NCBI GenBank assembly: GCA_020073615.1 | Contig: JAIQEX010000027.1 | Location: forward strand, 1-57,325 | Reading direction: 5' to 3' | Source of the DNA: Terriglobia bacterium | GTDB taxonomy: Bacteria; Acidobacteriota; Terriglobia; Bryobacterales; Bryobacteraceae | DNA length: 57,325 nt | Shown: one piece after another, positions 4,118-47,068 of the stretch | Numbering within the stretch: position 1 is the stretch's first letter | Layout: every line of letters begins with the position of its first letter | Made by a program: the position numbers and the translations under genes | Notes under the pieces: model-generated | What the model was told of the DNA's origin: nothing | What the model saw: only the letters and a program-made list of their open reading frames with translations | The model's database searches: none

Positions 4118-4427
4118 GAATTTGGTTCGGCCCTGGTTCAGCAGCACAGCGCTTCAGCACTCCGTATCCTATCGCCGCGCTCTCCTCTTCAGTCTCACCG
4201 TATAGCGGTTCTTGTGCTGATGCCCGGCCTGCATCCTCCTCGTACTTTGGTACGCGAGCGGTCAGGTCCTGTAAAATACCTGACAGTAGCGGCGTGGACT
4301 CCAAGAACGCCAAGAACAGCTTCAGTGCAAAGAAGAACTGCTGCAATTCGGCACCGTTCAACCCCCGAACTCGCCGCTGCAATTTGTATCGAATGTTTTG
4401 AAGTTTGAAGGTATAGTGATTCCATTC
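4118..4427 (-). pseudogene. Truncated hypothetical gene downstream of the zinc-ribbon gene
   Basis: Directly after the zinc-ribbon gene's TGA (4430-4428), the same frame continues with a credible protein sequence: EWNHYTFKLQNIRYKLQRRV, then a hydrophobic helix (LQQFFFALKLFLAFLES) and an acidic segment (YGETEEESAAIGYGVLKRC). No ATG or GTG lies at its beginning; a TTG at 4382 is the first usual alternative start. The credible sequence ends at about 4118, exactly at the terminal repeat of the 518-bp element, and beyond that the frame reads Arg/Pro-rich noise. I take it as a gene disrupted by insertion. The family is not recognised with certainty. Confidence 0.45.
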
Positions 4428-4661
4428 TCAGAGCCTAAGGGTAATGGTCCTGTGAGCAAGCTCGGCCAGAGCATCGAGTTGTCTCTGAATGGCCTGACGC
4501 GCCTTGCCCACCTCGTGCATGTGGTCAATGAGTCGCAGGTTGCCCTTGCAGCCACGACAAATCAGCACGCCATCCAGCCGGATCTGCTTCAGCGTTACGG
4601 GTTCGTAAAACCCGCAGCGAGGGCAAGGAATCTCCACTTCGCAATGATCCAAATCCACCAT
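4428..4661 (-). CDS. Small zinc-ribbon protein
   Basis: A 77-residue protein with two metal-binding pairs, CPRCGF near residue 13 and CRGCKG near residue 36, separated by about 20 residues: a classical zinc-ribbon spacing. The C-terminal half (residues 45-70) is predicted helical. The codon pattern is regular and the start ATG 4661 is the first in frame. The next gene on the same strand (4427-4118) follows immediately but is broken by a mobile element. Small zinc ribbons of this kind may bind nucleic acid or a protein partner; no function can be assigned. Confidence 0.65.
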   Translation of the reverse strand: MVDLDHCEVEIPCPRCGFYEPVTLKQIRLDGVLICRGCKGNLRLIDHMHEVGKARQAIQRQLDALAELAHRTITLRL

Positions 4662-4848
4662 CGGACCTCGTTATATTGGAGTCTATTTCACGGCACTTCT
4701 CGATTGCAACCACCATCCCAAGCGCCTTGTGAACCTTTTGAGGGATTTGCCATGTTCACGAGACCTCTCTCCCTAACGAGCAACAAAAGCACCTGCTCAC
4801 GACTCCGATGCAGCAGGGGGTGCATTCCGTCGGCGTTGGCAACCGGCC

Positions 4849-6267
4849 TTACGCTCCCACCCTGGCCGGCAGTTCCTTGAGTATCTCCGTTACGAACGCC
4901 TTGGCGTCGCCGAACAGCATGAGCGTCTTGTCCATGTAGTAGAGCGGGTTGTCGATGCCCGCGAAGCCCGGGTTCATGGAGCGCTTGATCACCATCACGG
5001 TGTGCGCCTTGTCCACGTCCAGGATGGGCATGCCGAAGATCGGGCTGGTCTTGTCGGTGCGGGCGGAGGGGTTGGTGACGTCGTTGGCGCCGATCACCAG
5101 CGCCACGTCGCACTGCGGGAAATCGCCGTTGATGTCGTCCATCTCGTACAGCCGGTCGTAGGGGATATCGGCCTCCGCCAGCAGCACGTTCATGTGGCCC
5201 GGCATGCGGCCGGCCACCGGATGGATGGCGAACTTCACATCCACGCCGCGGCGCATCAGGTTGTCGAACAACTCGCGGATCTTGTGCTGCGCCTGCGCCA
5301 CCGCCAGGCCATAGCCGGGCACCACGATCACGCTCCCCGCCGATTCCAGGATCGCCGCCGCCTCTTCCGCGCTCGCGCTGCGGTACGGCCGCTGCTGCGC
5401 CTGCGCGTGCGACGTCTGCATCTGCCCAAACGCCCCGAATAGCACGTTGGTGAAGGAGCGGTTCATGGCCTTGCACATGATGATCGACAGAATCAAACCC
5501 GACGAACCGTCGAGCGCGCCCGCGACCACCAGCAGGTTGTTGCCCAGCGCAAACCCCATGGCGCACGCCGAGAGACCCGCATAGGCATTCAGGATGGCGA
5601 TCACCGTGGGCATGTCGGCGCCCCCGATGGGGATGATCAGCAACACCCCGAACAGCAGCGCCAGCCCCGCGAAGATGGGAAACAGAAACGTGTCGGTGGG
5701 CACCAGAACGATGCGCACGGCCAAGCCGGCGGCGATGACGAAGAGCACGAAATTCACCGCGTTCTGATTGCGGTACGTGATGGGCCGCTGGGGCAGCACC
5801 TCCTGCAGCTTGCCCATGGCCATCAGGCTGCCGGTGAACGTCAGGTACCCCAGCAGCGTTTCGATGATCAGCGCCACCAACTGAAACGTGGGCAGCGTCT
5901 CGTGCAGGGCGTTGGTCTGATAGAACTCCGCCGTGCCCACCAGGGCCGCGGCCAGCGCGCCGCAGGCGTGCGAAAGGGCGGTTCGTTGCGGCACCGCGGT
6001 CATGGGCATGATGTAAGCGATGGGCACGCCCACCACCGTCCCGATGGCCATCGCCGCTACGATCCATCCCCAGTTGTGCACGTTGCCGATGCCCGCGCCG
6101 CCGAGCAGGCCGGGGAACCCGACGATCGTGCCGATTACCGCCAGCAGCATGCCCAGCGCCCCCGACCACACCCCGCGCCGCGAGCTGGCCGGATGGTTCA
6201 GCCACTTGAGGGAAAGGATGAACAGCGCCGCCGAAACGATGTAGATGTACTGCACCAGTTGCGCCAT
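4849..6267 (-). CDS. pntB: NAD(P) transhydrogenase subunit beta
   Basis: A 472-residue inner-membrane protein. PntB carries membrane domain dII and the NADP(H)-binding domain dIII of proton-translocating transhydrogenase, which uses the proton gradient to reduce NADP+ with NADH. Residues 1-270 contain about eight or nine hydrophobic helices with conserved GGADMPTVIA and NAYAGLSACA stretches. The C-terminal 180 residues show the dIII signatures VVPGYGLAVAQAQ, HPVAGRMPGHMNVLLAEA and GANDVTNPSA. The length matches the family. The ATG at 6267 shares one base with the stop of the upstream pntA2 (TAATG), so translational coupling is likely. It is the last gene of the sucC-sucD-ndk-pnt unit. Confidence 0.97.
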   Translation of the reverse strand: MAQLVQYIYIVSAALFILSLKWLNHPASSRRGVWSGALGMLLAVIGTIVGFPGLLGGAGIGNVHNWGWIVAAMAIGTVVGVPIAYIMPMTAVPQRTALSHACGALAAALVGTAEFYQTNALHETLPTFQLVALIIETLLGYLTFTGSLMAMGKLQEVLPQRPITYRNQNAVNFVLFVIAAGLAVRIVLVPTDTFLFPIFAGLALLFGVLLIIPIGGADMPTVIAILNAYAGLSACAMGFALGNNLLVVAGALDGSSGLILSIIMCKAMNRSFTNVLFGAFGQMQTSHAQAQQRPYRSASAEEAAAILESAGSVIVVPGYGLAVAQAQHKIRELFDNLMRRGVDVKFAIHPVAGRMPGHMNVLLAEADIPYDRLYEMDDINGDFPQCDVALVIGANDVTNPSARTDKTSPIFGMPILDVDKAHTVMVIKRSMNPGFAGIDNPLYYMDKTLMLFGDAKAFVTEILKELPARVGA

Positions 6268-6557
6268 TACTTTTTGGCCCCTGGCTTCTTGAACATCTTC
6301 ACCATGCGGTCGGTGATCAGAAAACCGCTCACGATGTTGGTCACCACCGCGGTGATGGCAATGAAGCCCAGCACCTTGGTCAGCGGGGTCGCGTCCGAAG
6401 CCCCGGTGATCAGGATCGCGCCCACCACGGATATCGCCGAGATGGCGTTGGTCAGCGACATCAGCGGCGTATGCAGCAGCGGCGAGACCTTGCGGATAAT
6501 CTCCAGCCCCACGAAGGTGGCCAGCATGAAGACGAACAGACCCAGCTCGAGATTCAT
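6267..6557 (-). CDS. pntAB: NAD(P) transhydrogenase subunit alpha part 2 (membrane)
   Basis: A 96-residue, three-helix membrane protein matching the C-terminal membrane segment of PntA, encoded separately as in Rhodospirillum-type three-subunit transhydrogenases. The segment around HTPLMSLTNAISAISVVGA is the conserved core of this subunit. It pairs with PntB to form the proton channel. It starts 11 bp after the end of the soluble alpha subunit and overlaps pntB by one base. Its length is typical for the split form. Confidence 0.95.
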   Translation of the reverse strand: MNLELGLFVFMLATFVGLEIIRKVSPLLHTPLMSLTNAISAISVVGAILITGASDATPLTKVLGFIAITAVVTNIVSGFLITDRMVKMFKKPGAKK

Positions 6558-6568
6558 CGATGCTCCCG

Positions 6569-7741
6569 TCAGACCGCCTGCAACGCGGGCAGCCCCATCA
6601 GTTCGCGCACTTTCGGATGCACTACTTCCCCGCCCTCGGTGACCAGCGTTTCGCGCACGATCTCGTCGTCGCGGTCCAGCTTCAGTTGGCCGTCCTTCAC
6701 AAGGTACTTCAAGAACGTGGCGATGTTCTTGGCGTACATCTGGCTGGCGTGGTACGGCACCGTGGAGGGCAGATTGAGCGGGCCGAAGATGCGCACGCCG
6801 CCGGCCTCCACCACTTCGCCCGGGCGCGTGAGCTCGCAGTTGCCGCCGCGCTCGGCGGCGATGTCCACGATCACCGATCCGGGCGCCATGTGGGCGGCCA
6901 TCTCCTTGGTGATCAGGATGGGCGCCTTCTTTCCGGGAACCGCGGCGGTGGTGATGACCACGTGCTGTTCCGCCAACACTCCCGCCATCAGCTCGCGCTG
7001 GCGGCGGTAGAACTCTTCCCCCATCGCCTTGGCGTACCCGCCCTTGTCTTCCGCCGCGGCGGCCTCGATCTCCAGCACCACGAAGCGCGCGCCCAGGCTT
7101 TCGATCTGTTCTTTGACCGCGCTGCGGATGTCGTAGCCGCTGACCAACGCTCCCAGCCGCCGCGCGGTGGCGATGGCCTGCAGCCCGGCCACGCCCGCGC
7201 CGATCACCAGCACGCGCGCCGGGGCCAGCGTGCCGGCGGCGGTCATCAACATGGGGAACATGCGCGGCAGTGCGTCGGCGGCGATCAGCACCGCCTTGTA
7301 CCCGGCCACCGTGGCCATGGAAGAGAGCGCGTCCATACTCTGCGCGCGGGTGATGCGCGGCATCAGCTCCATGGCCAGGAAAGTCACGCCGCGCCCGGCC
7401 AGCGCGCGGGCGGCGTCCATGGCGGTCAGCGGCTCGCCGAAGCCGATGGCCGTCTGGCCGCGCCGCATCAGCGCCAGGTCCGCGCCACCGGTTTCGACGT
7501 TGGCGCCTGGGCCGCGCACCTGCAAAATCACGTCGGCCGCGCCGAACACATCCTCGCGGCCGGCCAGGCGCATGCCCTTCTCGGCGTATTCCGCGTCCGG
7601 AAACCCGGCGCGCGCGCCCGCTCCGGCTTCCATCAGCAACTCCACGCCGGCCTTGCTCAGGACCGGGATCGCCACCGGAACCATGGCGACCCGCCGCTCT
7701 CCCGGCGCGGATTCGGAAACAATACCGACTTTGATGCCCAC
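6569..7741 (-). CDS. pntAA: NAD(P) transhydrogenase subunit alpha part 1 (NAD-binding)
   Basis: A 390-residue soluble subunit homologous to alanine dehydrogenase/PntA domain dI, which binds NAD(H). The Rossmann signature is visible as VIGAGVAGLQAIATARRLGA near residue 175, followed by the conserved YDIR. The N-terminus (VGIVSESAPGERRVAMVP) matches the family. I chose GTG 7741 because AAGGG lies just upstream and homology begins there. The frame is open further upstream, but that part overlaps ndk and looks like noise. The gene follows the ndk stop by seven bases, within the same operon. Confidence 0.95.
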   Translation of the reverse strand: MGIKVGIVSESAPGERRVAMVPVAIPVLSKAGVELLMEAGAGARAGFPDAEYAEKGMRLAGREDVFGAADVILQVRGPGANVETGGADLALMRRGQTAIGFGEPLTAMDAARALAGRGVTFLAMELMPRITRAQSMDALSSMATVAGYKAVLIAADALPRMFPMLMTAAGTLAPARVLVIGAGVAGLQAIATARRLGALVSGYDIRSAVKEQIESLGARFVVLEIEAAAAEDKGGYAKAMGEEFYRRQRELMAGVLAEQHVVITTAAVPGKKAPILITKEMAAHMAPGSVIVDIAAERGGNCELTRPGEVVEAGGVRIFGPLNLPSTVPYHASQMYAKNIATFLKYLVKDGQLKLDRDDEIVRETLVTEGGEVVHPKVRELMGLPALQAV

Positions 7742-7748
7742 GTTTCCC

Positions 7749-8164
7749 TTATAACAGGTCTGCCGTGTTGAAGAAGAACCGCAACTCCGCCTCCGCCGTT
7801 TCCGGCGCATCCGACCCGTGGATGCAGTTGCGCTCGATATTGGCCGCGAACCGCTTGCGCACCGTGCCCTCGGCCGCGTTGGCGGGATTGGTGGCGCCCA
7901 TCACTTCCCGCAGCCCGCGGATGGCGTCTTCACGCTCCAGCGCCATCACGATGATGGGCCCCTCGGTCATAAACTTCACGAGCCCCATGAAAAAGGGCTT
8001 CTCGCGATGTACCGCATAAAAGCCCTGCGCCTGCGCTTCGCTGAGGCGCGTCATGCGCAATGCCAGGATCTTGAAACCGGCCTTCTCAATCATGGCCAGG
8101 ATCTCCCCGGCCTGCCCGGCGGCCACGGCATCGGGCTTGATGATCGACAACGTACGTTCCACGC

Positions 8165-17219: not shown

Positions 17220-17339
17220 CTTACGTTCAATCGCGTACAGACCTTCCCACAAGCGGACAGTTGGGCGTTGCTCCCGCGGGCTAGCCTGCTGATTCGCTTG
17301 CGCCAGGCCTGTGGCCGTGCGCCTGCCCCTACACTTGCC

Positions 17340-19802
17340 ATGTTGCTACGGAACGTGGTTTACGCCCTGCGCATGCTACGCAAGAATCCGGGCTTCGCCG
17401 CCATTGCCGTGGTGTCGCTGGCGCTCGGCATCGGCGTCAACTCGGCCATGTTCAGTTTCGCCGATGCCCTGGTGCTGCGCCCCCTGCCAGTGGCGCGGCC
17501 GGGCGACGTGGTCACCCTCAGCGGCACCGCGCCGGACATCCCGTTCAGCTCGCTCGGCACGCTGTCCTACCCGGACTACGTCGATTTCCGCGATAAGAGC
17601 CGCTCGTTCGACGGCCTGGCGGCGTTCGTCCTGACCCCCGTAGGCGTCACCGAGAAGCCCGAAGCGCTGCCCCAGTTGCGCCTGGCCATGGCGGTGAGCG
17701 GCAATTTCTTTCCCACCATGCGCGTCTCGCCGGCGCTCGGCCGTAGCATCTCCGCGGAGGAGGATCGCGTCGCGGGGCGCGATGCCGTGATGGTCCTGGG
17801 GCATGACTTCTGGGAAAAGCGCCTGGCGGGCGATCCGCAAGCGCTCGGCCGCAAGCTCCGCCTCAACGGCGTCGAATTCACCGTCGTCGGTGCGGCGCCC
17901 AAAGAATTCACCGGGATGGATACCTTCGTACGGCCCGACCTCTTCATCCCCATCGCCATGCTGCCGCGCGTCGGCACCTCGGCGCAAGCGAACTTGCTGA
18001 CCGACCGCGCCGCCCGCGGTTTTGAAGTGAAAGGGCGCCTCCAGGCCGGCGTGAGTTTACGGCGGGCGCAGGCCGAACTGGCCGGTATCGCCGGCAGCCT
18101 GGCCGAGGCGCACCCGGATACCAATCGCAAGAGAGGCATCACGGTGCTTACCGAGTTGCAGATGCGCGCCGCGCAATCGCCTCCCAATACGGCCCTTGCC
18201 ACCATGCTGCTGGGCGTGGCCGGACTGGTGCTGATCATCGCCTGCGCCAACGTGGCCAACCTGCTGCTGAGCCGCGCCCGCGCCCGTTCCCGCGAAATGG
18301 CCGTGCGCCTCGCCATCGGCGCCGGACGCCGCCAGTTGCTGGCCCAGTTGCTGACCGAAAGCCTGGTGCTGGCGCTGGCCGGCGGCGCCCTCGGCCTGCT
18401 GTTCGCCGCCCTGTCGGTGGACTATCTCTCCACGCTTCAGCTCTCCACCGACCTGCCGATTTCAATCTCCGTGCAACTGGATCGCCGCGTCCTGGTCTTC
18501 AGCCTCGTTGTGTCCCTGCTGAGCGTGGTTCTGTTCGGCCTGGGGCCGGCGTTCCGCAGCGCCCGTACCAACGTGGTCGCGTTCCTGAAGTCGGGCGATG
18601 GCAACGGCGCCGCTCGCCGGCTCTATGGGCGGAACGTGCTGGTGATCGCGCAGGTGGCCCTGTCCCTGATGCTGCTTTCCGCAGCCACCCTGTTCTTCGA
18701 GGGTTTTCGCGAAACGCTCCTCGATTCCCCGGGATTCCGCACGGACCATTTGCTCCTGATGTCATTCGATCCCACGCTGGTCCGCTACACACCGGAAAAG
18801 GCGCGCGACTTTTACCGCGACCTCGTGGAGCGGACGCGGCAGCTTCCCGGAGTGAGCAACGCCGCCCTCACCCAGATCCTTCCCTTCGGCAACCGCATCG
18901 TCGGAAAGGACATTATCCCCGAGGGCGCGCAACTTCCCCGCGGCAAAGCCTCCGACTCAGTCTTCAGCAATGCGGTCGGGGACCGGTACTTTGAAACCAT
19001 GGGCACGCCCATCGTGGCCGGACGCGCGATTCTGGCCACCGACACCAAGGACTCGCCCGCGGTGGCGGTGATCAACCAGGTGCTGGCCGAACGCTATTGG
19101 CCCAAAACGAATCCCGTCGGCAAGAGGTTCCGGCTTAATGGCCCCGGCGGACCGTGGGTTCAGATCGTGGGCGTCGCCCGCAATGCCAAGTACGTGTTCG
19201 TTGGAGAGGGGCCCCTGCCCTATCTCTATCTGCCCTACCAGCAGAATCCCGATGCCGTCATGACGCTGCTGGTCGGCACCGTGGCCGATGCCGCTTCCCT
19301 GGCGTCGCCGGTGCGCGAAGTGGTCCGCTCACTCGATCCGCACCAGCCCGTCTTCGATGTGCGCACCATGCACGAATATTACCTGCAGCGCGCCGTGCGC
19401 ATCATGCAGATGATCGTGGTGATCGTTGGCACCATGGGCGTTCTGGGCCTGAGCCTGGCGCTGGTCGGACTGTACGGCCTGGTGGCCTACTCGGTCAGCC
19501 GCCGTACGCGCGAGATCGGAATCCGCATGGCGGTGGGCGCGGAATGGCGCGACATTCTGCGCATGGTGCTGCGCCAGGGAATGCTGCTGGCCGTGCTCGG
19601 CGTGGGCGTCGGCATCGCCGGCAGTTTCGGCCTGATGCGCGTCCTCGGCGCGATCTTCGGCCGAACCCAAGAAAACTGGGTGGATGCCTGGGGATTCGTG
19701 GCCATGCCGCTGGTCGTGCTGCTGGTGATGGCCGCCGCCAGCTACGTGCCGGCGCGCCGCGCCGCCGCCATCGACGCCAACCAGGCCCTGCATTACGAAT
19801 GA
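17340..19802 (+). CDS. ADOP-type ABC transporter permease (FtsX/MacB duplicated), copy 1
   Basis: An 820-residue membrane protein of the acidobacterial duplicated orphan permease type. Each half has an MacB-like periplasmic part and an FtsX core. The first half opens with ALRMLRKNPGFAAIAVVSLA and has three helices near residues 285-420 (ANVANLLLSRARARSREMAV lies between them). The second half starts near residue 430 and ends with helices near 700-800 containing SRRTREIGIRMAVGAEWRDI. No ATPase gene is adjacent, as is typical. Unlike the copy at 44429 it lacks the ~70-residue N-terminal cytoplasmic helical extension. ATG 17340 is chosen because homology starts there. Confidence 0.92.
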   Translation: MLLRNVVYALRMLRKNPGFAAIAVVSLALGIGVNSAMFSFADALVLRPLPVARPGDVVTLSGTAPDIPFSSLGTLSYPDYVDFRDKSRSFDGLAAFVLTPVGVTEKPEALPQLRLAMAVSGNFFPTMRVSPALGRSISAEEDRVAGRDAVMVLGHDFWEKRLAGDPQALGRKLRLNGVEFTVVGAAPKEFTGMDTFVRPDLFIPIAMLPRVGTSAQANLLTDRAARGFEVKGRLQAGVSLRRAQAELAGIAGSLAEAHPDTNRKRGITVLTELQMRAAQSPPNTALATMLLGVAGLVLIIACANVANLLLSRARARSREMAVRLAIGAGRRQLLAQLLTESLVLALAGGALGLLFAALSVDYLSTLQLSTDLPISISVQLDRRVLVFSLVVSLLSVVLFGLGPAFRSARTNVVAFLKSGDGNGAARRLYGRNVLVIAQVALSLMLLSAATLFFEGFRETLLDSPGFRTDHLLLMSFDPTLVRYTPEKARDFYRDLVERTRQLPGVSNAALTQILPFGNRIVGKDIIPEGAQLPRGKASDSVFSNAVGDRYFETMGTPIVAGRAILATDTKDSPAVAVINQVLAERYWPKTNPVGKRFRLNGPGGPWVQIVGVARNAKYVFVGEGPLPYLYLPYQQNPDAVMTLLVGTVADAASLASPVREVVRSLDPHQPVFDVRTMHEYYLQRAVRIMQMIVVIVGTMGVLGLSLALVGLYGLVAYSVSRRTREIGIRMAVGAEWRDILRMVLRQGMLLAVLGVGVGIAGSFGLMRVLGAIFGRTQENWVDAWGFVAMPLVVLLVMAAASYVPARRAAAIDANQALHYE

Positions 19803-39958: not shown

Positions 39959-40186
39959 TCACTTGGGCGTACTCTTTGGACTTGCACGCTGGGCAGCGTA
40001 GGGATATGACAACGCCAGTAGCTTGCGCGTGCCTGACTCAGTTCTCAACTCGAAAATCATGATCAGATCCTCCACGGCGTTCAGGGACGTGTTCCCCTTC
40101 TGCTGTTGAAGCCGACGCTCGGACTTACCCAACTGTTTTTCGGTACTTGTGATCTCAATTCTCTGGCTCAACTGCTGATGCGGCAA
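39959..40186 (-). CDS. Possible small ORF downstream of the DUF6680 gene
   Basis: A 75-codon frame (STEKQLGKSERRLQQQKGNT in the middle, then DLIMIFELRTESGTRK) overlaps the DUF6680 gene end by 32 bp. Composition is plausible for a charged helical protein, but no homologue is recognised and the start is uncertain. The rest of 39745-40154 shows only the left direct repeat and a weak 5-bp stem followed by a T-run at 39930-39959. Confidence 0.25.
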   Translation of the reverse strand: MPHQQLSQRIEITSTEKQLGKSERRLQQQKGNTSLNAVEDLIMIFELRTESGTRKLLALSYPYAAQRASPKSTPK

Positions 40187-40802
40187 GCGGGTCTGTAACG
40201 ATCCTTACCGGATGGGGCTTCGTACCCGACAGGTATTCCATCAATAACTTTCGCAACTGAGCCTGCTCTTTGGCCTCCTCCTCCGTAGCAGCTTGCGCCA
40301 CAATTGGAAACGCAGCCTTACCCGTAAAGATGTTCACGAGCCCGGTTCGGATGACGTTTTGGTCTTGCTCAAGGTTTCCGTGAGCTACTGGCAAATAGAC
40401 ACTGTTCTTTATATGGGTTTTGTCGAAATCGTAGCCCAGGCTGTTCGACATCTCGTACAGAAGGTCAACGAAAAGCTCGGTCTGCCGCATTCCCCAAGCG
40501 CCCGCAGCGTCGGATTCGGGTCGAGTGTCCAGGATGTCCAAGTATTGTTTCCACGCTTCCCGAACAGCTTTCTCCTTCGGCCCCCCGCCGTAGAACTCAA
40601 GATCAATCATGTTGAGAGCCTGGACGTGTTCTGTCGAGACACGAGCCGCACGAGTTGCCATGAGGGTTCGGAAGACGTACTGCTTACCCTTTCGCTTTGC
40701 TTGCCGCCGTTCGACCCATTTTTCCGCTTGAACGGCGGCTACCGGTCCTGTAAACAGCGTCACGAATATGAGGAGGCCTTCGGCAATGGTCATCGGCTTC
40801 AC
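40155..40802 (-). CDS. DUF6680-like membrane-anchored protein
   Basis: A 215-residue protein with one N-terminal transmembrane segment (EGLLIFVTLFTGPVAAVQAE) followed by a basic stretch (EKWVERRQAKRKGKQYVF) and a helical cytoplasmic domain with WGMRQTELFVDLLYEMSNSL. This layout fits the DUF6680 family of unknown function. Base composition is clearly lower in GC than the neighbours and the gene lies between the copies of a ~40-bp direct repeat, which suggests transfer. It may be an accessory or defence-related gene; that is inference only. Confidence 0.7.
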   Translation of the reverse strand: MKPMTIAEGLLIFVTLFTGPVAAVQAEKWVERRQAKRKGKQYVFRTLMATRAARVSTEHVQALNMIDLEFYGGGPKEKAVREAWKQYLDILDTRPESDAAGAWGMRQTELFVDLLYEMSNSLGYDFDKTHIKNSVYLPVAHGNLEQDQNVIRTGLVNIFTGKAAFPIVAQAATEEEAKEQAQLRKLLMEYLSGTKPHPVRIVTDPLAASAVEPEN

Positions 40803-41213: not shown

Positions 41214-41813
41214 ATGGTAACCTTTTCCGGTTCCGGCGGTATTCCATTACGTAAGCGGAGGCAAGTGGAAGACGAACAGCTCATGCAGGAGGTGAAGGCG
41301 GGCGATGTGGGAAGGCTCGAACTGTTGTTCGACCGCCATCACCGGGCGCTGTTCCATTTCTTCCTCCACCTCACGGGCAACCGCGCGGCGAGCGAAGACC
41401 TGGTGCAGGAAGTGTTCTTCCGCATTTTGAAGTACCGGCACACGTACCAGCCGGGTACTTCCTTCCGCTCCTGGATCTTCCAGGTGGGCCGCAACGCCCA
41501 TCTGGACTACGCGGGCCGCCATAAGGCGGAGGTGACCATGCCGGAAGAAGTGGTGGAATTCCGATCGTCGGAGACGGCCCCGGACCGGCAGGCCCAGAAC
41601 CGGCAGCAGACGGTGCTGCTGCGGCGCGCGCTCGCGGCCCTGCCGCGCGAGAAGCGCGAGGTGCTGGTGATGAGCCGGTTTCTGGAGTTGCGGTACGAAG
41701 AGATCGCCTCCGTCCTGAAATGCGAGGTGGGAACGGTCAAGGTGCGGGTGTACCGGGCGCTGCGCGACCTGAGCGACCGGTTCTTCGCACTGAGTGGGGA
41801 GCGAGCATCATGA
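41214..41813 (+). CDS. ECF-type RNA polymerase sigma factor
   Basis: A 199-residue sigma-70 family protein. Region 2 (LELLFDRHHRALFHFFLHLT, then AASEDLVQEVFFRILKY and FRSWIFQVGRNAHLDY) and region 4 (LAALPREKREVLVMSRFLEL, then YEEIASVLKCEVGTVKVRVY) are complete, with no region 3: the extracytoplasmic-function type. ATG 41214 is used here, but a GTG at about 41268 with GGAGG just upstream is a credible alternative that would keep both domains. The stop overlaps the anti-sigma ATG (ATGA). It probably controls the downstream four-gene set. Confidence 0.93.
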   Translation: MVTFSGSGGIPLRKRRQVEDEQLMQEVKAGDVGRLELLFDRHHRALFHFFLHLTGNRAASEDLVQEVFFRILKYRHTYQPGTSFRSWIFQVGRNAHLDYAGRHKAEVTMPEEVVEFRSSETAPDRQAQNRQQTVLLRRALAALPREKREVLVMSRFLELRYEEIASVLKCEVGTVKVRVYRALRDLSDRFFALSGERAS

Positions 41814-42646
41814 GTTGCGAACGAATGCGCGAGCAGATTCCGGAATGCCTGGCCGGCCGATTGGACGACGCCGCGCGCGAAAGATTCATCGCGCATCTGG
41901 ATACCTGTTCAGCCTGCCGCGCCGAGGTGGCGCAGTTGGGCGTGGTGTGGCGGGGACTGGAGTCCCTCCCCCTGCCCGAACCGGACGCGGCCATGCGCTC
42001 CCGTTTCCTGGAGGTGCTGGAAGCTTACCAGGCGGGAATGCAGCAGGCGCAGGAGCGCGCCATCGTATCGGCGAAACGCAGCGGGCGGATTTTCGCCTGG
42101 TGGCCCACGCGCACCGCGTGGCAGGCGGCGATGGCGGCCGCGCTCGTGATCGTGGGCGGTCTGACCGGCCGCTATCTTGCCGCGCCGCGGGCCGCGGCTC
42201 CCGCCGCAACCACCGAGGTGGCGCAGCTCAAAGGACAGGTGGAAAACCTGCGCCAACTGGTGGCGCTGTCGTTGTTGCAGGAGCAATCGCCCAGCTCGCG
42301 CATTCGCGGCGCCAGCTACAGCGACCAGATCGCCCAGCCCGACCGGCAGGTGCAGCAGGCGCTGCTCCACACCATGAATCACGATTCCAACGTGAACGTG
42401 CGGCTCTCCGCGGTGGATGCGCTGGAAAAGTACGCCGCCAATCCGGAAATCCGGCGGGCGCTGGTGGATGCCGTGCCGGTGCAGGATTCCCCGCTGGTGC
42501 AGATCGCTCTGATCGACCTGCTGGTACAGATCGACGACCGGGACGCCCTGGCGGCGTTTCGCAAACTCGCCCGTGAGCCGCAGGTGGACGCCGACGTCCG
42601 CCAGCGCGCCACATGGGCCATCGGGAAACTGGAGGTGCCGAAATGA
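41810..42646 (+). CDS. Zinc-finger anti-sigma factor with transmembrane segment and HEAT-like C-terminus
   Basis: A 278-residue membrane protein. Residues 1-40 are a zf-HC2 anti-sigma domain (CERMREQIPE, then HLDTCSACRAEV with HxxxCxxC). A transmembrane helix is near residues 105-125 (AAMAAALVIVGGLTGRYLAA), followed by a short coiled coil (VAQLKGQVENLRQLVALSLL). Residues 185-275 hold two or three HEAT-like repeats (VNVRLSAVDALEKYAANPEI, SPLVQIALIDLLVQIDD), unusual for this class and placed outside the membrane. It should hold the sigma factor inactive until an envelope signal is sensed. It overlaps both neighbours by four bases. Confidence 0.88.
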   Translation: MSCERMREQIPECLAGRLDDAARERFIAHLDTCSACRAEVAQLGVVWRGLESLPLPEPDAAMRSRFLEVLEAYQAGMQQAQERAIVSAKRSGRIFAWWPTRTAWQAAMAAALVIVGGLTGRYLAAPRAAAPAATTEVAQLKGQVENLRQLVALSLLQEQSPSSRIRGASYSDQIAQPDRQVQQALLHTMNHDSNVNVRLSAVDALEKYAANPEIRRALVDAVPVQDSPLVQIALIDLLVQIDDRDALAAFRKLAREPQVDADVRQRATWAIGKLEVPK

Positions 42647-43506
42647 AGAAGCTGATCGCCCTGGCGCTGGTTGTCTTTCCGGCCCTGGCATTGGACCACG
42701 ACGACGACCGCGACTGGCGGCACGAGGAGCAGGAGACCATTCGCCGCTCGTTCAATGTTTCCGCCGGATCGGGGGCCAAGAAGCTGCTGGTCGATAACTT
42801 CTCCGGCTACGTGCACGTGACCGGCGCCAGCGGTGCCGAGGTGCAGGTCACCATCCAGAAGCACATACGGGCGGAATCCACCGAAGCGGTGGCGGAAGCC
42901 AAGCGCGACGTGAAGCTCGATATTTCGCAGCAGGGCAATTCCGTGCGCCTGTACGTGGACGGCCCGTCGCGCTCGTCCCACGGCAACAACTACCGCGGCG
43001 ACCGTTACTACGGCTACCGCGTCCAGTTCGACTACGACATCCAGGTACCGCCGGACACGGAGCTGGTGCTGAAGACGTTTAACCGCGGCAATATCGAAGT
43101 GAAGGGCACGTCGGGCGATTTCGAGGTGCACAATTTCAACGGAGGAATCGACCTGCAGGAGATGGGCGGCTCCGGCTCGGTCAACACCTTCAACGGACCG
43201 GTGAAGGTCGCCTTCACCCGCAACCCGGCGCACGAGGCGACCTTCAAGACCTTCAACGGTTCCATCGACGTCTATCTGCAACCGGGCCTCGACGCCGACC
43301 TCCAGTTCAAGACGTTCCACGGCGGCGTCTATTCGGATTTCGATGTGACTACCCTTCCGTCGGTGGTCAGCGGCGAGATCCAGAGCGGCCGGTTCGTGTA
43401 CCGCTCCTCGGACCACGCCACGAAGGTACGCGCGGGTAAGGGCGGGCCGGCGATGTCGTTCGACACCTTCAACGGCTCCATCCGCCTGCACTCCAAAGGT
43501 CAGTAA
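42643..43506 (+). CDS. Exported DUF4097-type beta-solenoid protein, FNG-repeat
   Basis: A 287-residue protein with a short signal peptide (MKKLIALALVVFPALALDHD). The middle and end consist of short strand repeats marked by FN-G turns: FNRGN, FNGGI, FNGPV, FNGSI, FHGGV and FNGSI at intervals of about 20 residues. This is the DUF4097 (putative adhesin) right-handed beta-solenoid pattern. The N-terminal HDDDRDW segment is acidic. The ATG overlaps the anti-sigma stop. It is probably a target of the sigma factor and located at the cell envelope. Confidence 0.85.
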   Translation: MKKLIALALVVFPALALDHDDDRDWRHEEQETIRRSFNVSAGSGAKKLLVDNFSGYVHVTGASGAEVQVTIQKHIRAESTEAVAEAKRDVKLDISQQGNSVRLYVDGPSRSSHGNNYRGDRYYGYRVQFDYDIQVPPDTELVLKTFNRGNIEVKGTSGDFEVHNFNGGIDLQEMGGSGSVNTFNGPVKVAFTRNPAHEATFKTFNGSIDVYLQPGLDADLQFKTFHGGVYSDFDVTTLPSVVSGEIQSGRFVYRSSDHATKVRAGKGGPAMSFDTFNGSIRLHSKGQ

Positions 43507-43528
43507 GAAGTAGGAAAAGGATACTGCG

Positions 43529-44338
43529 ATGAAACGATGGTTGGCCCTTCCGGGCCTGATACTAGCCGTCTGTGCGCTGGCAGGCGCACAGCAGACCGCG
43601 GGCGGCCGCGTAGTGGTGCCCGCGCGCAACACATCCCATCCCCGGGTGGTGAACGCGCACGTGCTGAACGGCGCGATCACGGTCAAGATCTATAGCGGCA
43701 AGGAGGTGATCGTGGAAACGGGACCCTCGGCCGAGTCACGCCGGAAGGCGGAGACCACGGCGGGCGGCATGAGGCGCATCGATCTGCCGGCCCGGGGCCT
43801 CGAAGTCACCGAAGAGGACAACGTCATCACCGTCCGCAACGGAATGAACGGCAATAGCAATCTGATCATCACCGTGCCTGTCGATACCTCGCTCAAGCTC
43901 AAGGCCAACAACGGAGCCATCACCGCCGATGGCGTACACGGCGAAGTGGAAGCCAACAGCCTCAACGGGCACATCACGCTGACCAATATTTCCGGCACGG
44001 TGACGGCGCACTCCCTCAACGGCCCGATGAAAGTCACCATGGACCGCGTGGACCCCGCCAAGCCGCTCTCCTTCAGCACGCTGAACGGCGGCATCGAAGT
44101 GACTCTTCCCGCCGACGTCAAGGCCAATGTGACGGTGAAAACGGATCACGGATCGCTCTACAGCGATTTCGACATCACGCTCGGCGGCGCTACCGCCATC
44201 ACCGAGAAGAACGACACCCCCGACGGCAAGTTCCGCGTGCGCATCGACCGTACCATCCGCGGCACCATCAACGGCGGCGGCACGGAGATTACTTTCCATA
44301 CCTTCAACGGCCGGGTCGTGATCGGCAAGAAAAAGTAG
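43529..44338 (+). CDS. Exported DUF4097-type beta-solenoid protein, LNG-repeat
   Basis: A 269-residue paralogue of the upstream gene, with a signal peptide (LALPGLILAVCALAGAQQ). Its repeats use LN-G turns: VLNGAI, NNGAI, SLNGHI, SLNGPM, TLNGGI, then DHGSL and TFNGRV. It begins 22 bp after the preceding stop with AGGAAAAGGA in the gap as the likely ribosome-binding site. The gene ends inside a strong hairpin that probably stops transcription. The function is unknown; a solenoid surface or periplasmic binding role is inferred. Confidence 0.85.
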   Translation: MKRWLALPGLILAVCALAGAQQTAGGRVVVPARNTSHPRVVNAHVLNGAITVKIYSGKEVIVETGPSAESRRKAETTAGGMRRIDLPARGLEVTEEDNVITVRNGMNGNSNLIITVPVDTSLKLKANNGAITADGVHGEVEANSLNGHITLTNISGTVTAHSLNGPMKVTMDRVDPAKPLSFSTLNGGIEVTLPADVKANVTVKTDHGSLYSDFDITLGGATAITEKNDTPDGKFRVRIDRTIRGTINGGGTEITFHTFNGRVVIGKKK

Positions 44339-44364
44339 GGTAGGCCTCCCGGCCTGCCCTACTT
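44333..44364 (+). terminator. Strong hairpin at the end of the sigma/DUF4097 operon
   Basis: AAGTAGGGTAGGCC (44333-44346) and GGCCTGCCCTACTT (44351-44364) pair across a TCCC loop with a single G-T position. It begins within the last codon before the stop of the preceding gene. There is no long T-run, so it may be a weak or Rho-assisted terminator, or a processing signal. Confidence 0.5.
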
Positions 44365-44428
44365 AAGCGTTGACGGACGGCTCCTTCTTCATATAGAATG
44401 TCTGTACGAGTGAAGGAGGAGACCGGTC

Positions 44429-47068
44429 ATGCACCGAATCCGGACGCTGTGGCGGAATCTGGCGCGCAGGCGGCGCGTCGAAGCGGAGCTCGACGAGGAG
44501 ATCCGCTCCTACCAGGCCATGCTCGAAGACGAGAAGACGCGGGCGGGAGCGGAGCCGCGCGCGGCGCGCCGCGAAGCCCTGCTGGAGCTGGGCGGCGCGG
44601 AGCAGATCAAGGAACGGGTGCGCGACATCCGCCGCGGTGCGGCGTTGAGCTCCATGGGGGCGGAGCTGCGCCAGTCGCTGCGCGGCCTGCGGCGCAATCC
44701 CGCGCTCACGGTGACGGGCGCGGTCATGCTGGCGCTGGGCATGGGCGCGAGCACGGTGGTGTTCAGCGTCTTCCATGCGGCGCTGCTGCAGCCGCTGCCC
44801 TTTCGCGACAGCGGCCGCGTGTTTGAGCTGTGGGAGACGCGCCACGATCGCGGGTTCAATCAGGCGTCGTTCACGGAGGCCAACTTCTGGGATCTCCGCG
44901 CGCGGAACCGTTCGTTTGTGGAAGTCGGCGCCTACCACTACGACGAAGCGAACCTGACTGGCAACGGTCCCGCGGAGAAGGTCCGGTGCATCGCGGTCAG
45001 CGCGGGATTCTTTCGCGCCCTCGGCGTCTCGCCCTTGCTCGGCCGCGACTTCTCGTACCAGGAGGACCAGCGCGGCCAGGACCACGTGGTGATCCTGGGC
45101 CATCGCTTTTGGAAGAACCGGCTGGCCGCGGATCCGCAGATTCTGGGTAAGACGGTGCGCCTGAACGACGCCACGTTCACCGTGGTGGGCGTGCTTCCGC
45201 CGGGCGAGCCGTGGATCGACGACCAGACTTACGTGCAATTCGGCTTCCGCCCCGACGCCGACCGCAGCAGCTTCGAATTTCAGGTGGTGGGACGGCTGGC
45301 GACGGGCGCTTCGGCGGAATCGGCGCGCGCCGATCTGGAGCGCATCGCCGGCGTGCTGGCGCAGACCTATCCGAAGAACGACAAGGGCATCGGATTTCGC
45401 ATGGAGCCTTCCAGCACGTGGATCGCCGACGATGCCACGCGGCGGGCCCTCTGGGTGCTGCTCGGCGCGGTTACGTTCCTGTTGCTCATCGCCTGCCTGA
45501 ATATCGCCAACCTGCTTTTGGCGCGCGGCATGACCCGCAAGCGCGAAATTGCCGTGCGTACCGCGCTTGGCGCCGGCCGCGCGCGGCTGGTGCGCTTCGT
45601 GATGATGGAGTCGATGCTGCTCAGCGGATCGGGCGCCGCACTCGGGCTGGCGCTGGCGTACGCCGCGCTGCGCTCCATCCAGTCACTGGAGATCCGCGGC
45701 ATACCCAGGTTGGCGGATGCCGGCTTGAACCCGTGGGTGGTCGGATTCGCGGTGCTGATGGCGGCGCTCACCGGCGTGCTGTCGGGCCTTGCTCCCGCGT
45801 GGCAGACGCCGGCCGGAGCCATCGCCGCCGCGCTGCGCGAGGGAGACCGGCAGACGGGAAGCCGCGGGCAGTGGCGGCTGCGCGCGGCATTGGTCACGGG
45901 CGAAGTGGCGCTCTCCTTTCTGCTGCTGGTGGGCGCCGGTCTGCTGATTCGCAGCTTCAGCCAGTTGATGAGCGTGAACCGCGGGTTTCAGACGGAGAAC
46001 CGGCTGGTGTTTTCGGTGAGCATGCCCAACTCGTATTGGGAGAAGGGCGTGGGCAAGCAGTTCCTGGACCGGTTCTTCGCGCGCTTGTCGGCGGTGCCGC
46101 AAGTGATATCGGCCGGCGCGGTCAGCCAAAGGCCGGTGGAGGGAGACGATCCCGGCATGGGAATCGCCGCCAGTTCCGCACGGCAAGTTTCCGGACGCGA
46201 CATCCCCTGGGCCAGTTGGCGCGTGGTCTCGCCGGGCTATTTCGGCGCGCTCGGATTGCCGCTGCTCAAGGGAAGAATTTTTGATGAAGGAGATAAGCCG
46301 GTTTGGACCGAGCCGGGCCAGCCGGTACCGGTGCGGCGCGTCATGATCAGCGAGCGACTGGCGAAGTCGATCTTTCCCCATGAAGACCCCGTCGGCAGGC
46401 ATGCCACCCTGTGGAAGGGACAGAACGAACTGGATGCCGAAGTGGTGGGCGTGGTGGGCGACATGCGCGAGCGCGGTTTGAATGCCGAGCCGCCGCTCAC
46501 CGTGTATCTTCCTTACGGCCGCAATGCGCTTCCCGGCGAAATCGTGATCCACACCAGCGGCAATCCGCTCGCGCTGGTGCCCACGGTGCGATCGATCGTC
46601 GCCTCGCTCGACCCGAATCTGCCGCTGGCCGAGGTGCGCTCGTTCGCCGAAGTGGTGCACCGTTCGGTGGCGCCGCAGCGGTTCAACACCATGCTGCTGG
46701 CGGTGTTCGGCGGGATGGCTCTGCTGCTGGCGACCACCGGCATCTACGGAGTGCTTTCTTATTCCATGAGCCGGCGCACCGCCGAGATTGGGCTGCGCGT
46801 CGCCCTGGGCGCCAGCGGCCGCAGCATTCTGGCGATGACCCTCTCGCAGGGCATGCGGCCGGTGGCGTACGGCCTGGCGTTGGGCGCAGTGGGCGCGTGG
46901 TGGCTGTCGCGCTACTTCGCGGCGCTGCTGTTCGGCATCAAGCCATTCGACGCGCCGACATACCTCGCCGTGGCGGCGCTGTTGCTCGCCACCGCGCTGG
47001 CCGCCTGCTATCTGCCGGGACGGCGGGCCACGCGCATCGATCCGGCCGTGGCCCTCCGCATCGAGTAA
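44429..47068 (+). CDS. ADOP-type ABC transporter permease (FtsX/MacB duplicated), copy 2
   Basis: An 879-residue membrane protein. Residues 1-75 are a charged helical cytoplasmic segment (ARRRRVEAELDEEIRSYQAM), diagnostic for the longer ADOP form. The duplicated MacB/FtsX halves follow: first-half helix after LRGLRRNPALTVTGAVMLAL, core near 345-470 (ANLLLARGMTRKREIAVRTA), second half ending with SRRTAEIGLRVALGASGRSI. A good ribosome-binding site (GAAGGAGGAGA) stands before ATG 44429. No ATPase is nearby. It may belong to the sigma-controlled set upstream or be independent, since a hairpin lies between. Confidence 0.92.
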   Translation: MHRIRTLWRNLARRRRVEAELDEEIRSYQAMLEDEKTRAGAEPRAARREALLELGGAEQIKERVRDIRRGAALSSMGAELRQSLRGLRRNPALTVTGAVMLALGMGASTVVFSVFHAALLQPLPFRDSGRVFELWETRHDRGFNQASFTEANFWDLRARNRSFVEVGAYHYDEANLTGNGPAEKVRCIAVSAGFFRALGVSPLLGRDFSYQEDQRGQDHVVILGHRFWKNRLAADPQILGKTVRLNDATFTVVGVLPPGEPWIDDQTYVQFGFRPDADRSSFEFQVVGRLATGASAESARADLERIAGVLAQTYPKNDKGIGFRMEPSSTWIADDATRRALWVLLGAVTFLLLIACLNIANLLLARGMTRKREIAVRTALGAGRARLVRFVMMESMLLSGSGAALGLALAYAALRSIQSLEIRGIPRLADAGLNPWVVGFAVLMAALTGVLSGLAPAWQTPAGAIAAALREGDRQTGSRGQWRLRAALVTGEVALSFLLLVGAGLLIRSFSQLMSVNRGFQTENRLVFSVSMPNSYWEKGVGKQFLDRFFARLSAVPQVISAGAVSQRPVEGDDPGMGIAASSARQVSGRDIPWASWRVVSPGYFGALGLPLLKGRIFDEGDKPVWTEPGQPVPVRRVMISERLAKSIFPHEDPVGRHATLWKGQNELDAEVVGVVGDMRERGLNAEPPLTVYLPYGRNALPGEIVIHTSGNPLALVPTVRSIVASLDPNLPLAEVRSFAEVVHRSVAPQRFNTMLLAVFGGMALLLATTGIYGVLSYSMSRRTAEIGLRVALGASGRSILAMTLSQGMRPVAYGLALGAVGAWWLSRYFAALLFGIKPFDAPTYLAVAALLLATALAACYLPGRRATRIDPAVALRIE

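Follow-up and report, generated by a model that had tools for sequence, protein, structure and literature searches.

An ECF sigma factor operon of Acidobacteriota with a HEAT-bearing anti-sigma factor and two apparently exported Toastrack proteins resembles rpoE-rseA-rseB and appears to be autoregulated

What might an ECF sigma factor control when its gene stands in a row with those of a HEAT-bearing anti-sigma factor, two DUF4097 proteins and an ADOP-family permease? This question was raised by a 57,325-nucleotide stretch of DNA from a Terriglobia bacterium (contig JAIQEX010000027.1), which was analyzed as a whole and is called the window here. The initial annotation had placed all five genes in one row and had proposed a self-monitoring envelope system. 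The first four genes form an operon that encodes an ECF sigma factor, an anti-sigma factor with zf-HC2, transmembrane (TM) and HEAT parts, and two exported DUF4097 (Toastrack) proteins, TR1 and TR2. The features of the locus are as follows.

41217 to 41242, + strand: predicted ECF promoter, GTAACCTTTTCCGGTTCCGGCGGTAT, with -35 GTAACC, a 16-bp spacer and -10 GTAT; predicted to be the sigma factor's own (upstream-region comparison)
41257 to 41261, + strand: Shine-Dalgarno-like GGAGG before GTG 41265 (sequence; kept in close relatives)
41265 to 41813, + strand: ECF sigma factor, 182 amino acids, GTG start (Pfam; start by ortholog comparison)
41810 to 42646, + strand: anti-sigma factor with zf-HC2 domain, TM helix, coiled helix, conserved helix and HEAT solenoid (Pfam, alignment, model)
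42643 to 43506, + strand: exported Toastrack (DUF4097) protein 1, TR1 (homology to TR2; N-terminal signal by hydropathy)
43529 to 44338, + strand: exported Toastrack (DUF4097) protein 2, TR2 (DUF4097 over cut-off; model; N-terminal signal by hydropathy)
44333 to 44364, + strand: G+C-rich hairpin of 14 bp that follows the operon and lacks a T run (z -4.0)
44370 to 44399, + strand: possible sigma-70-like promoter of the neighboring ADOP gene, outside the system (one match, chance mean 0.6)
44429 to 47068, + strand: ADOP-family permease carrying the permease prefix domain at its N-terminus, a neighbor (TIGR03434)

The sigma factor matched Pfam Sigma70_r2 (5.2e-15) and r4_2 (1.7e-15) and, as expected of an ECF sigma factor, has regions 2 and 4 only in about 180 amino acids. 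Its start had been placed at ATG 41214, which is unlikely and was rejected because this codon sits at the edge of the -35 element of the conserved promoter and because, judged by eye, the close relatives L071 to L074 retain a GTG preceded by GGAGG at the position corresponding to 41265; GTG 41265 is therefore favored. The coordinates bear out the earlier description of the first three genes as overlapping by ATGA (41810 to 41813 and 42643 to 42646) and of the fourth as following 22 bp on.

Gene order was then compared among 80 relatives from named genomes, with counts limited to loci with room on the contig. The sigma gene was directly upstream of the anti-sigma gene in 76 of 77 relatives, the single miss (L075), which was counted, having merely 88 bases 5' of its anti-sigma gene. 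A Toastrack gene came next after the anti-sigma gene in all 73 relatives with room, at least 56 of 68 loci had two, and the 12 loci with a single one carried the TR2 type; among 29 more distant loci, 6 gave no Toastrack match. Carriers were mostly Acidobacteriota, with a few labeled KSB1, Ignavibacteria or Gemmatimonadota. The initial annotation had suggested a search for its order in other genomes and had held that a lack of conservation beyond this one would weaken the idea; the first four genes keep their order in many genomes other than the source genome. The four-gene system, widely conserved, is found in soil bacteria.

A predicted ECF promoter, GTAACC-N16-GT(AT), is conserved 5' of the sigma gene. 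Of 77 upstream stretches of 150 bp, 62 contained exact GTAACC, compared to 396 of 15,400 random ones. The 77 comprised 76 loci and the window; L075, which has no upstream stretch, and L115, L140 and L146, in which the contig end cuts the promoter region, were set aside. Position +22 was G in all 60 tabulated motif copies, the other 2 of the 62 lying so close to the end that their columns could not be tabulated. The 6.96-Mb source genome held two exact copies of the pattern. We then searched 40 genomes with the system, our own choice from the 80, and found 54 motif sites versus 4 for a reversed control: 25 lay before the own operon, 20 before ADOP genes at other loci, 4 before additional Toastrack genes and 5 at other places. 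Judged from these sequences, the sigma factor probably reads this promoter and the operon appears to be autoregulated, which supports the self-control part of the proposed self-monitoring system.

The anti-sigma factor combines a known head with an additional C-terminal part. The zf-HC2 domain spans residues 3 to 37 (Pfam 5.5e-7) and HEAT_2 residues 184 to 271 (4.5e-9), both over the cut-off; between them lie a TM helix (102 to 123), a coiled helix (132 to 157) and a conserved helix (161 to 171) with invariant R164, and the HEAT solenoid occupies residues 179 to 275. The zinc motif of ZAS anti-sigma factors is C-x25-H-x3-C-x2-C. This motif is present here, with C3, H29, C33 and C36 each at least 90% conserved among 65 anti-sigma sequences, and the gene adjoins its sigma gene, as in ZAS systems. 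The N-terminus gave weak profile matches to the solved anti-sigma factors RsiW (0.007) and ChrR (0.3), which share the zinc motif residues but not the HEAT solenoid behind the TM helix. Residues about 171 to 270 strongly matched HEAT-type alphaRep profiles, and the predicted model reached a pLDDT of 90.9, with the HEAT part above 90. One TM-like segment preceded the HEAT part in 64 of 65 orthologs, in agreement with the initial annotation, and in one the best hydrophobic window lay elsewhere. The HEAT part is probably periplasmic; the positive-inside count (37 of 65) is not decisive. Our literature search found no description of a HEAT-bearing anti-sigma factor.

The assignment of both exported proteins to DUF4097 held for TR2, which matched Pfam PF13349 over the cut-off (1.3e-7; 31.7 versus a gathering threshold of 22.9 bits), and was weaker for TR1, which fell below it (6.8e-4; 19.5 versus 22.9 bits) and is clearly homologous to TR2 (phmmer about 2e-23). 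The best fold match of the AlphaFold model of TR2 was 4QRK (E 6.9e-9, TM by query 0.46, rmsd 7.1), and this model, the one examined, is a right-handed beta-helix as in 4QRK; a sequence-profile search of TR2 against solved structures returned one irrelevant match only. Export, also claimed earlier, was borne out by N-terminal hydrophobic stretches resembling export signals in 54 of 54 TR1 and 41 of 42 TR2 sequences, according to our own hydropathy rule. In the Pfam scan the exported proteins matched DUF4097, and no RseB family appeared up to E 1. No PspA, PspC or LiaF component was found among the 7 and 5 window proteins scanned, and weak LiaG, LiaX and LiaF matches below the cut-off fell on the Toastrack domain.

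The envelope stress operon of E. coli is rpoE-rseA-rseB (-rseC). Like it, the locus joins an ECF sigma factor, a membrane anti-sigma factor and exported proteins, as called by hydropathy and with a regulator role probable, in one apparently autoregulated operon. Unlike RseA, the anti-sigma factor starts with a zf-HC2 domain and its TM helix is followed by a HEAT part, and the exported proteins are Toastracks instead of RseB, whose work they may do without belonging to its family; the predicted targets include ADOP permeases. The operon resembles RseA/RseB in plan while using other components, and it is found across Acidobacteriota and, by their labels, several other phyla. The main text of Ravi et al. 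2024 (PMC11237479) places Toastrack proteins beside envelope-stress regulators, mentions a four-gene context of the DUF2089 type whose operon includes a sigma factor and, separately, Toastracks adjoining ABC ATPase and permease genes, and argues that Toastracks are intracellular, whereas both Toastracks here look exported. That main text contains neither "ECF" nor "Acidobact", and "adop" only as "ADOPTS".

We consider it reasonably probable that the operon is a switch for envelope stress that regulates itself, has the layout of rpoE-rseA-rseB and, in Bryobacterales and their near relatives, acts in trans on ADOP genes. The zf-HC2 N-terminus of the anti-sigma factor would hold the sigma factor at the inner membrane, and a single TM helix would lead through a coiled stalk to the HEAT solenoid in the periplasm. 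An envelope signal would free the sigma factor for transcription from GTAACC-N16-GT(AT) promoters, the first target being its own operon with the sigma factor, the anti-sigma factor and both Toastracks; within Bryobacterales and closely related lineages it would also act at other loci of the genome, on genes for ADOP permeases and additional Toastracks and on a few TIGR03435 genes. We infer both this signal and a contact of the Toastracks with the HEAT domain, which they would most likely bind as RseB acts on RseA; drawn off or returning with the state of the envelope, they would close a feedback loop.

A serious competitor, to which we give a lesser though sizable chance, is that the Toastracks are output only, envelope scaffolds that never touch the anti-sigma factor, and that another cue frees the sigma factor through the HEAT part. 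Candidate cues would be a lipid, a glycan or a misfolded protein. The Toastrack genes outside the operon with the same promoter (4 of the 54 sites) are what would be expected of effectors. Mirror-tree partial correlations given sigma, without a significance test, were 0.35 and 0.24 between the HEAT part and the Toastracks and just slightly lower, 0.23 and 0.20, between the zinc domain and the Toastracks, a weak and unspecific signal that also suits this alternative. So do the 6 distant loci with the HEAT anti-sigma factor and no Toastrack match, and a Toastrack in a MacAB-like locus of the source genome, among whose matched frames no relative of the operon's sigma factor was found. Against it stand the fixed position of a Toastrack gene within the operon of the anti-sigma factor (all 73 loci with room) and the fact that the lone Toastrack of the 12 single-Toastrack loci is always of the TR2 type. 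RseB likewise has a fixed place with RseA.

Beyond its own operon, the favored switch is predicted to act on ADOP-family permeases (TIGR03434), which are MacB-like. MacAB-type export likewise uses MacB_PCD/FtsX permeases, but ADOPs are named orphan permeases. The 20 motif-bearing ADOP genes were spread over 13 of the 40 genomes, and in 11 the start codon lay 6 to 9 nt past the motif. With ADOPs making up roughly 1.7% of genes, the binomial enrichment was 3e-29 at this rough background, and 7e-9 with a threefold background and a single count for each 70% cluster. Another 20 genomes, mostly outside Bryobacterales, had 14 of 16 motif sites at the operon, with 12 reversed-control sites; there the motif is nearly confined to the operon, and the ADOP branch is therefore lineage-bound. 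Taken together, the whole-genome searches extended to 60 of the 80 named loci (40 + 20). The strict motif was absent from 12 of 40, 16 of 23 and 6 of 20 genomes carrying the gene in three sets. The source genome has at least 66 full ADOP genes, and only 2 of 30 ADOP loci had even a loose motif upstream, so most ADOPs are not targets. In Bryobacterales and closely related lineages, some ADOP permeases appear to be trans targets.

More tentatively, the circuit may serve ADOP homeostasis, with the HEAT anti-sigma factor monitoring exported Toastracks that cooperate at the membrane with MacB-like permeases, and the sigma factor it releases replenishing Toastracks and ADOP pairs. If true, this reading would provide the large ADOP family with a regulator and a functional context, the Toastrack being the common periplasmic component. 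In the MacAB-like locus of the source genome, the Toastrack is flanked by a MacB-type ATPase and an ADOP. By eye, a nearby frame at this locus looks like a response regulator.

It is unlikely that some other ECF sigma factor of similar specificity transcribes from the ADOP promoters and that the operon regulates itself alone. Another ECF gene of the source genome (C37) and one in a second genome (G276) have GTAACCTTT motifs upstream, and the former's similar motif means that other sigma factors may share the specificity; the confinement of the motif to the operon, with two exceptions, in the 20 genomes mostly outside Bryobacterales points the same way. However, the ADOP motif matches that of the operon in the -35, T run, spacer and -10, and in a draw of 297 genomes, 11 that lack a close ortholog (E below 1e-30) had 12 motif sites, none of them before an ADOP gene, irrespective of how many ADOPs these genomes hold.

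The inclusion of the window's own ADOP gene in the row fared less well than that of the first four genes, and we regard it as an improbable fifth member of the operon and rejected it as such. Its product matched TIGR03434 with 878 bits (cut-off 622), and it lies on the same strand, 90 bp behind TR2; an ADOP gene also follows TR2 in L117 and L147. These, however, are the only 2 of 68 loci with that arrangement, and the hairpin noted earlier between the fourth gene and the permease proved strong, with a 14-bp stem. The possible sigma-70-like promoter of its own is suggestive only, one match comparing to a chance mean of 0.6. No copy of the GTAACC motif precedes the gene, and its product has the prefix domain, to which 19 of the 20 motif-bearing ADOPs showed no match. 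It is instead ADOP genes elsewhere that carry the promoter. That a sigma/anti-sigma pair merely sits beside unrelated exported proteins by chance is next to negligible and was rejected, given the conserved order over many families and, by labels, several phyla.

ADOP permeases are numerous in these genomes and the job of the family is unclear, hence the interest of a predicted regulator. A literature search found no account of ADOP control and no ADOP regulator, and the phrase "duplicated orphan permease" occurred once, in a single paper, among the open-access papers searched. An ECF promoter before some ADOP and Toastrack genes offers a testable regulator and an envelope-stress setting for both families, and the RseA/RseB-like build from different parts makes control of a HEAT-bearing anti-sigma factor by an exported beta-helix directly testable. 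Among further motif sites of the source genome, C175 and C224 fall within genes and were discounted as chance matches, and C216 turned up with a looser pattern.

The row lies on the plus strand. It opens with an ECF sigma gene, followed by the gene of a membrane anti-sigma factor and by two genes for exported DUF4097 (Toastrack) proteins; behind these come a hairpin and the gene of an ADOP permease. The ATGA overlaps described in the initial annotation are present at 41810 and 42643, as is the 22-bp gap between the two DUF4097 genes. Its sigma start at ATG 41214 was replaced: because that codon abuts the promoter -35 and the close relatives L071 to L074, aligned by eye, retain a GTG at the place of 41265, the likeliest start is GTG 41265, which is preceded by GGAGG. 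As for the two proteins it called DUF4097, the second (TR2) exceeded the Pfam cut-off whereas the first (TR1) fell below it (19.5 versus 22.9 bits), yet was plainly homologous to the second in a protein comparison (E about 2e-23).

Features in the window
17268-19802, full-length ADOP gene
40155-40802, minus strand, DUF6680 protein (Pfam 4.5e-56), upstream of the operon
41217-41242, plus strand, ECF-type promoter, by motif
42643-43506, plus strand, TR1
43529-44338, plus strand, TR2
44429-47068, plus strand, full-length ADOP gene

The anti-sigma protein was searched against 297 genomes of the phylum, and matches at E <=0.001 were found in 126, with close orthologs (E <1e-30) in 18, the source genome (G000) included. 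At 29 loci in other genomes, the sigma gene was adjacent in 28, L065 being contig-cut on that side, and 23 had a Toastrack match next, including weak ones (for two, E 4e-4 to 6e-4); none followed the anti-sigma gene in 6 of the 29 (L048, L053, L054, L062, L064, and L065). When named genomes were scanned with the anti-sigma alignment, at least 511 relatives turned up, of which the best 80 were used; these were chosen by anti-sigma likeness regardless of neighbours and are the closest relatives. By record labels, these best 80 of at least 511 were mostly Acidobacteriota, Aminicenantes included, with three KSB1, two Ignavibacteria/Ignavibacteriales, one Gemmatimonadota chromosome, and single MAGs labelled Verrucomicrobia, Bacteroidota, and Betaproteobacteria, labels being as recorded and mis-binning possible. 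Among the same best 80 of at least 511 relatives, and where there was room, the sigma gene lay directly upstream in 76 of 77 (the single miss, L075, has only 88 bases ahead of the anti-sigma gene), a Toastrack was the next gene after the anti-sigma gene in 73 of 73, and at least 56 of 68 had two Toastracks (the first at L075 may be fused to the anti-sigma frame). The proposed order of the first four genes thus extends beyond this genome. The ADOP gene, which had been counted in the row, probably does not belong to it: a same-strand ADOP stood behind the operon in only 2 of 68 of these loci (L117 and L147), and the ADOP at 44429-47068 carries the N-terminal permease prefix and lacks the motif. 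G000 also has a second, distant ECF sigma/zf-HC2-HEAT anti-sigma/Toastrack-like locus (L056, contig C239, 5887-8958), with a Toastrack match just below the Pfam cut-off.

The sigma genes share an upstream element, GTAACC-TTTT-N12-GT(AT). Exact GTAACC occurred within 150 bp upstream in 62 of 77 cases, versus 396 of 15,400 random 150-bp stretches from the same loci, and in the 60 tabulated copies the -10 G was at +22 in all and the T at +23 in 59, the last two -10 letters being looser (A in 41, T in 54). By eye, 13 of the 15 stretches without exact GTAACC have, at the matching position, a copy that differs by one or two bases; the other two (L147 and L148) show none there.

The pattern GTAACCNTTTN{10,13}GTAT occurred twice in G000, once at the system's own operon and once at C223:16417; at the latter site the -10 is followed after 8 nt by the start codon of an ADOP. 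With one mismatch allowed there were six sites and no reversed ones.

Further G000 sites
C201, ADOP, start 7 nt after the motif
C37:112430 (L159, L277), a different ECF sigma gene, whose start lies 17 nt after a GTAACCTTT-type motif
C175 and C224, inside genes

The similar motif at the C37 ECF gene makes cross-talk or a shared promoter specificity possible. The C223 and C201 target ADOPs each lead a tandem ADOP pair. G000 has at least 66 full-length ADOP genes, two of them in the window. Most ADOPs are not predicted targets, since even a loose motif lay upstream of no more than 2 of 30 ADOP loci of G000.

We then scanned 40 genomes that had been selected via loci of the system with GTAACCTTTN12RGTAT, which gave 54 sites in 28 genomes, compared to 4 for the reversed pattern. 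The gene behind the site was the sigma operon in 25, an ADOP in 20 (spread over 13 genomes), another Toastrack in 4 (all over the Pfam cut-off), and some other gene, without a match to the proteins of the window, in 5. By record title, 18 of the 20 ADOP sites belong to Bryobacterales, Bryobacteraceae, Solibacter, Solibacteraceae, or Sulfopaludibacter, and 2 to Acidobacteria only.

The five other sites
L235 and L251, TIGR03435 genes, motif 7-8 nt ahead of the start codon
One secreted-looking protein, no NCBIfam match
One protein of undefined kind
L252, ends after 34 bases, resembles an ADOP start by eye

L235 and L251 would link a second paralog family, TIGR03435, to the predicted regulon. The ADOP background was 3,942 loose first-look candidates in 257 Mb, with about 18 scored per genome, or roughly 1.7% of genes if 1.1 kb per gene is assumed. 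At this rough background, 20 ADOPs among 29 non-self sites had a binomial probability of 3e-29; with one site per 70%-identity cluster it was 10 of 19, or 7e-9 at three times that background. For 11 of the 20 target ADOPs, 6-9 nt separate the -10 from the first start codon, and their transcripts would therefore be nearly leaderless. No permease prefix match was found in 19 of the 20 targets, versus 21 of the 30 best-scoring G000 ADOP loci (one itself a target), the other 9 having the domain.

A slightly wider pattern, run on the 297 genomes of the phylum, matched 22 sites versus 14 reversed. Nine were in genomes with a close ortholog, six at the operon (G000 included) and three at ADOPs (two of these in G188, the third in G000); one, in G138, was at a contig end, and none of the other 12, in 11 genomes with uncounted ADOP numbers, preceded an ADOP. 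The strict motif was present in only 7 of 23 genomes with an anti-sigma match in that search (9 sites, 2 reversed). Among 20 more genomes, mostly outside Bryobacterales, 14 had the motif, at 16 sites (12 reversed): 14 at the operon sigma gene (shortened in L285), one at a protein of undefined kind, and one at nothing. Since the motif in these genomes is mostly at the operon alone, self-control of the operon appears to be the ancestral trait, and the ADOP branch to be a feature of Bryobacterales and their near relatives.

Across 65 anti-sigma orthologs, each residue of the zinc motif C3-x25-H29-x3-C33-x2-C36 was at least 90% conserved. Their profile gave weak N-terminal matches to solved zinc anti-sigma factors (RsiW 0.007, ChrR 0.3) and matched alphaRep HEAT proteins at residues about 171-270 (best 1.7e-10). 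An AlphaFold model with the 65 sequences as input had a pLDDT of 90.9 and a pTM of 0.56.

Helices of the anti-sigma model
102-123, transmembrane
132-157, stalk
161-171, helix
179-275, three helix pairs, pLDDT >90

The Foldseek matches of this model were to alphaRep and further solenoids; the best had E 1.6e-3, and none reached E <=0.001. By a hydropathy rule, 64 of the 65 sequences had a transmembrane-like segment at residues 89-113 (the exception had its best hydrophobic window at 215), and none had a second strong one. Because the zinc head must meet sigma in the cytoplasm, the HEAT part would be periplasmic; the charge rule agreed in 37 of 65, alone not decisive for orientation. Conservation is also among the highest in the stretch ahead of the HEAT pairs (consensus QQSASERLRG), where S160 is at least 90% conserved and R164 invariant.

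The TR2 model (pLDDT 85.3) best matched 4QRK (E 6.9e-9, TM by query 0.46), a structure cited for Toastrack by Ravi et al. 2024 (PMC11237479). An export-like hydrophobic N-terminal stretch was found in 54 of 54 TR2 and 41 of 42 TR1 sequences, and the same hydropathy rule detected no transmembrane-like segment beyond it in either set; lipobox-like motifs were rare (5 of 54 and 3 of 42). In rpoE-rseA-rseB, a sigma factor, a membrane anti-sigma factor, and exported regulator(s) are self-induced, and the present operon resembles it in this layout and in its apparent self-induction. By this analogy, the Toastracks may perhaps partner the HEAT domain in an RseB-like manner, at a chance somewhat short of even; that they are output only is close behind, and distance-matrix correlations do not decide between the two.

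The available portion of Ravi et al. 2024 (PMC11237479) defines Toastrack, mentions a sigma factor linked to a DUF2089-type context, and argues for intracellular Toastracks; it contains neither "ECF" nor "Acidobact," has "adop" only within "ADOPTS," and uses "heat" only in other senses. In mostly open-access literature, no title or abstract on Toastrack/DUF4097 with sigma/anti-sigma factors, on HEAT anti-sigma factors, or on ADOP or TIGR03435 described such a system, nor did the available portions of PMC3174227 and PMC7406223. The sigma factor may already belong to a numbered ECF group.

On contig C161 of G000 (L061, 162-7857, minus strand), a MacB/LolD-type ATPase, whose best NCBIfam matches are below cut-off, is consecutive with a Toastrack and an ADOP permease, all behind a long open frame (4296-5648) and a frame at 6439-7857 that by eye resembles a response regulator. 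Here a Toastrack sits within an apparently MacAB-like locus, which separately hints that Toastracks may work together with ADOPs.
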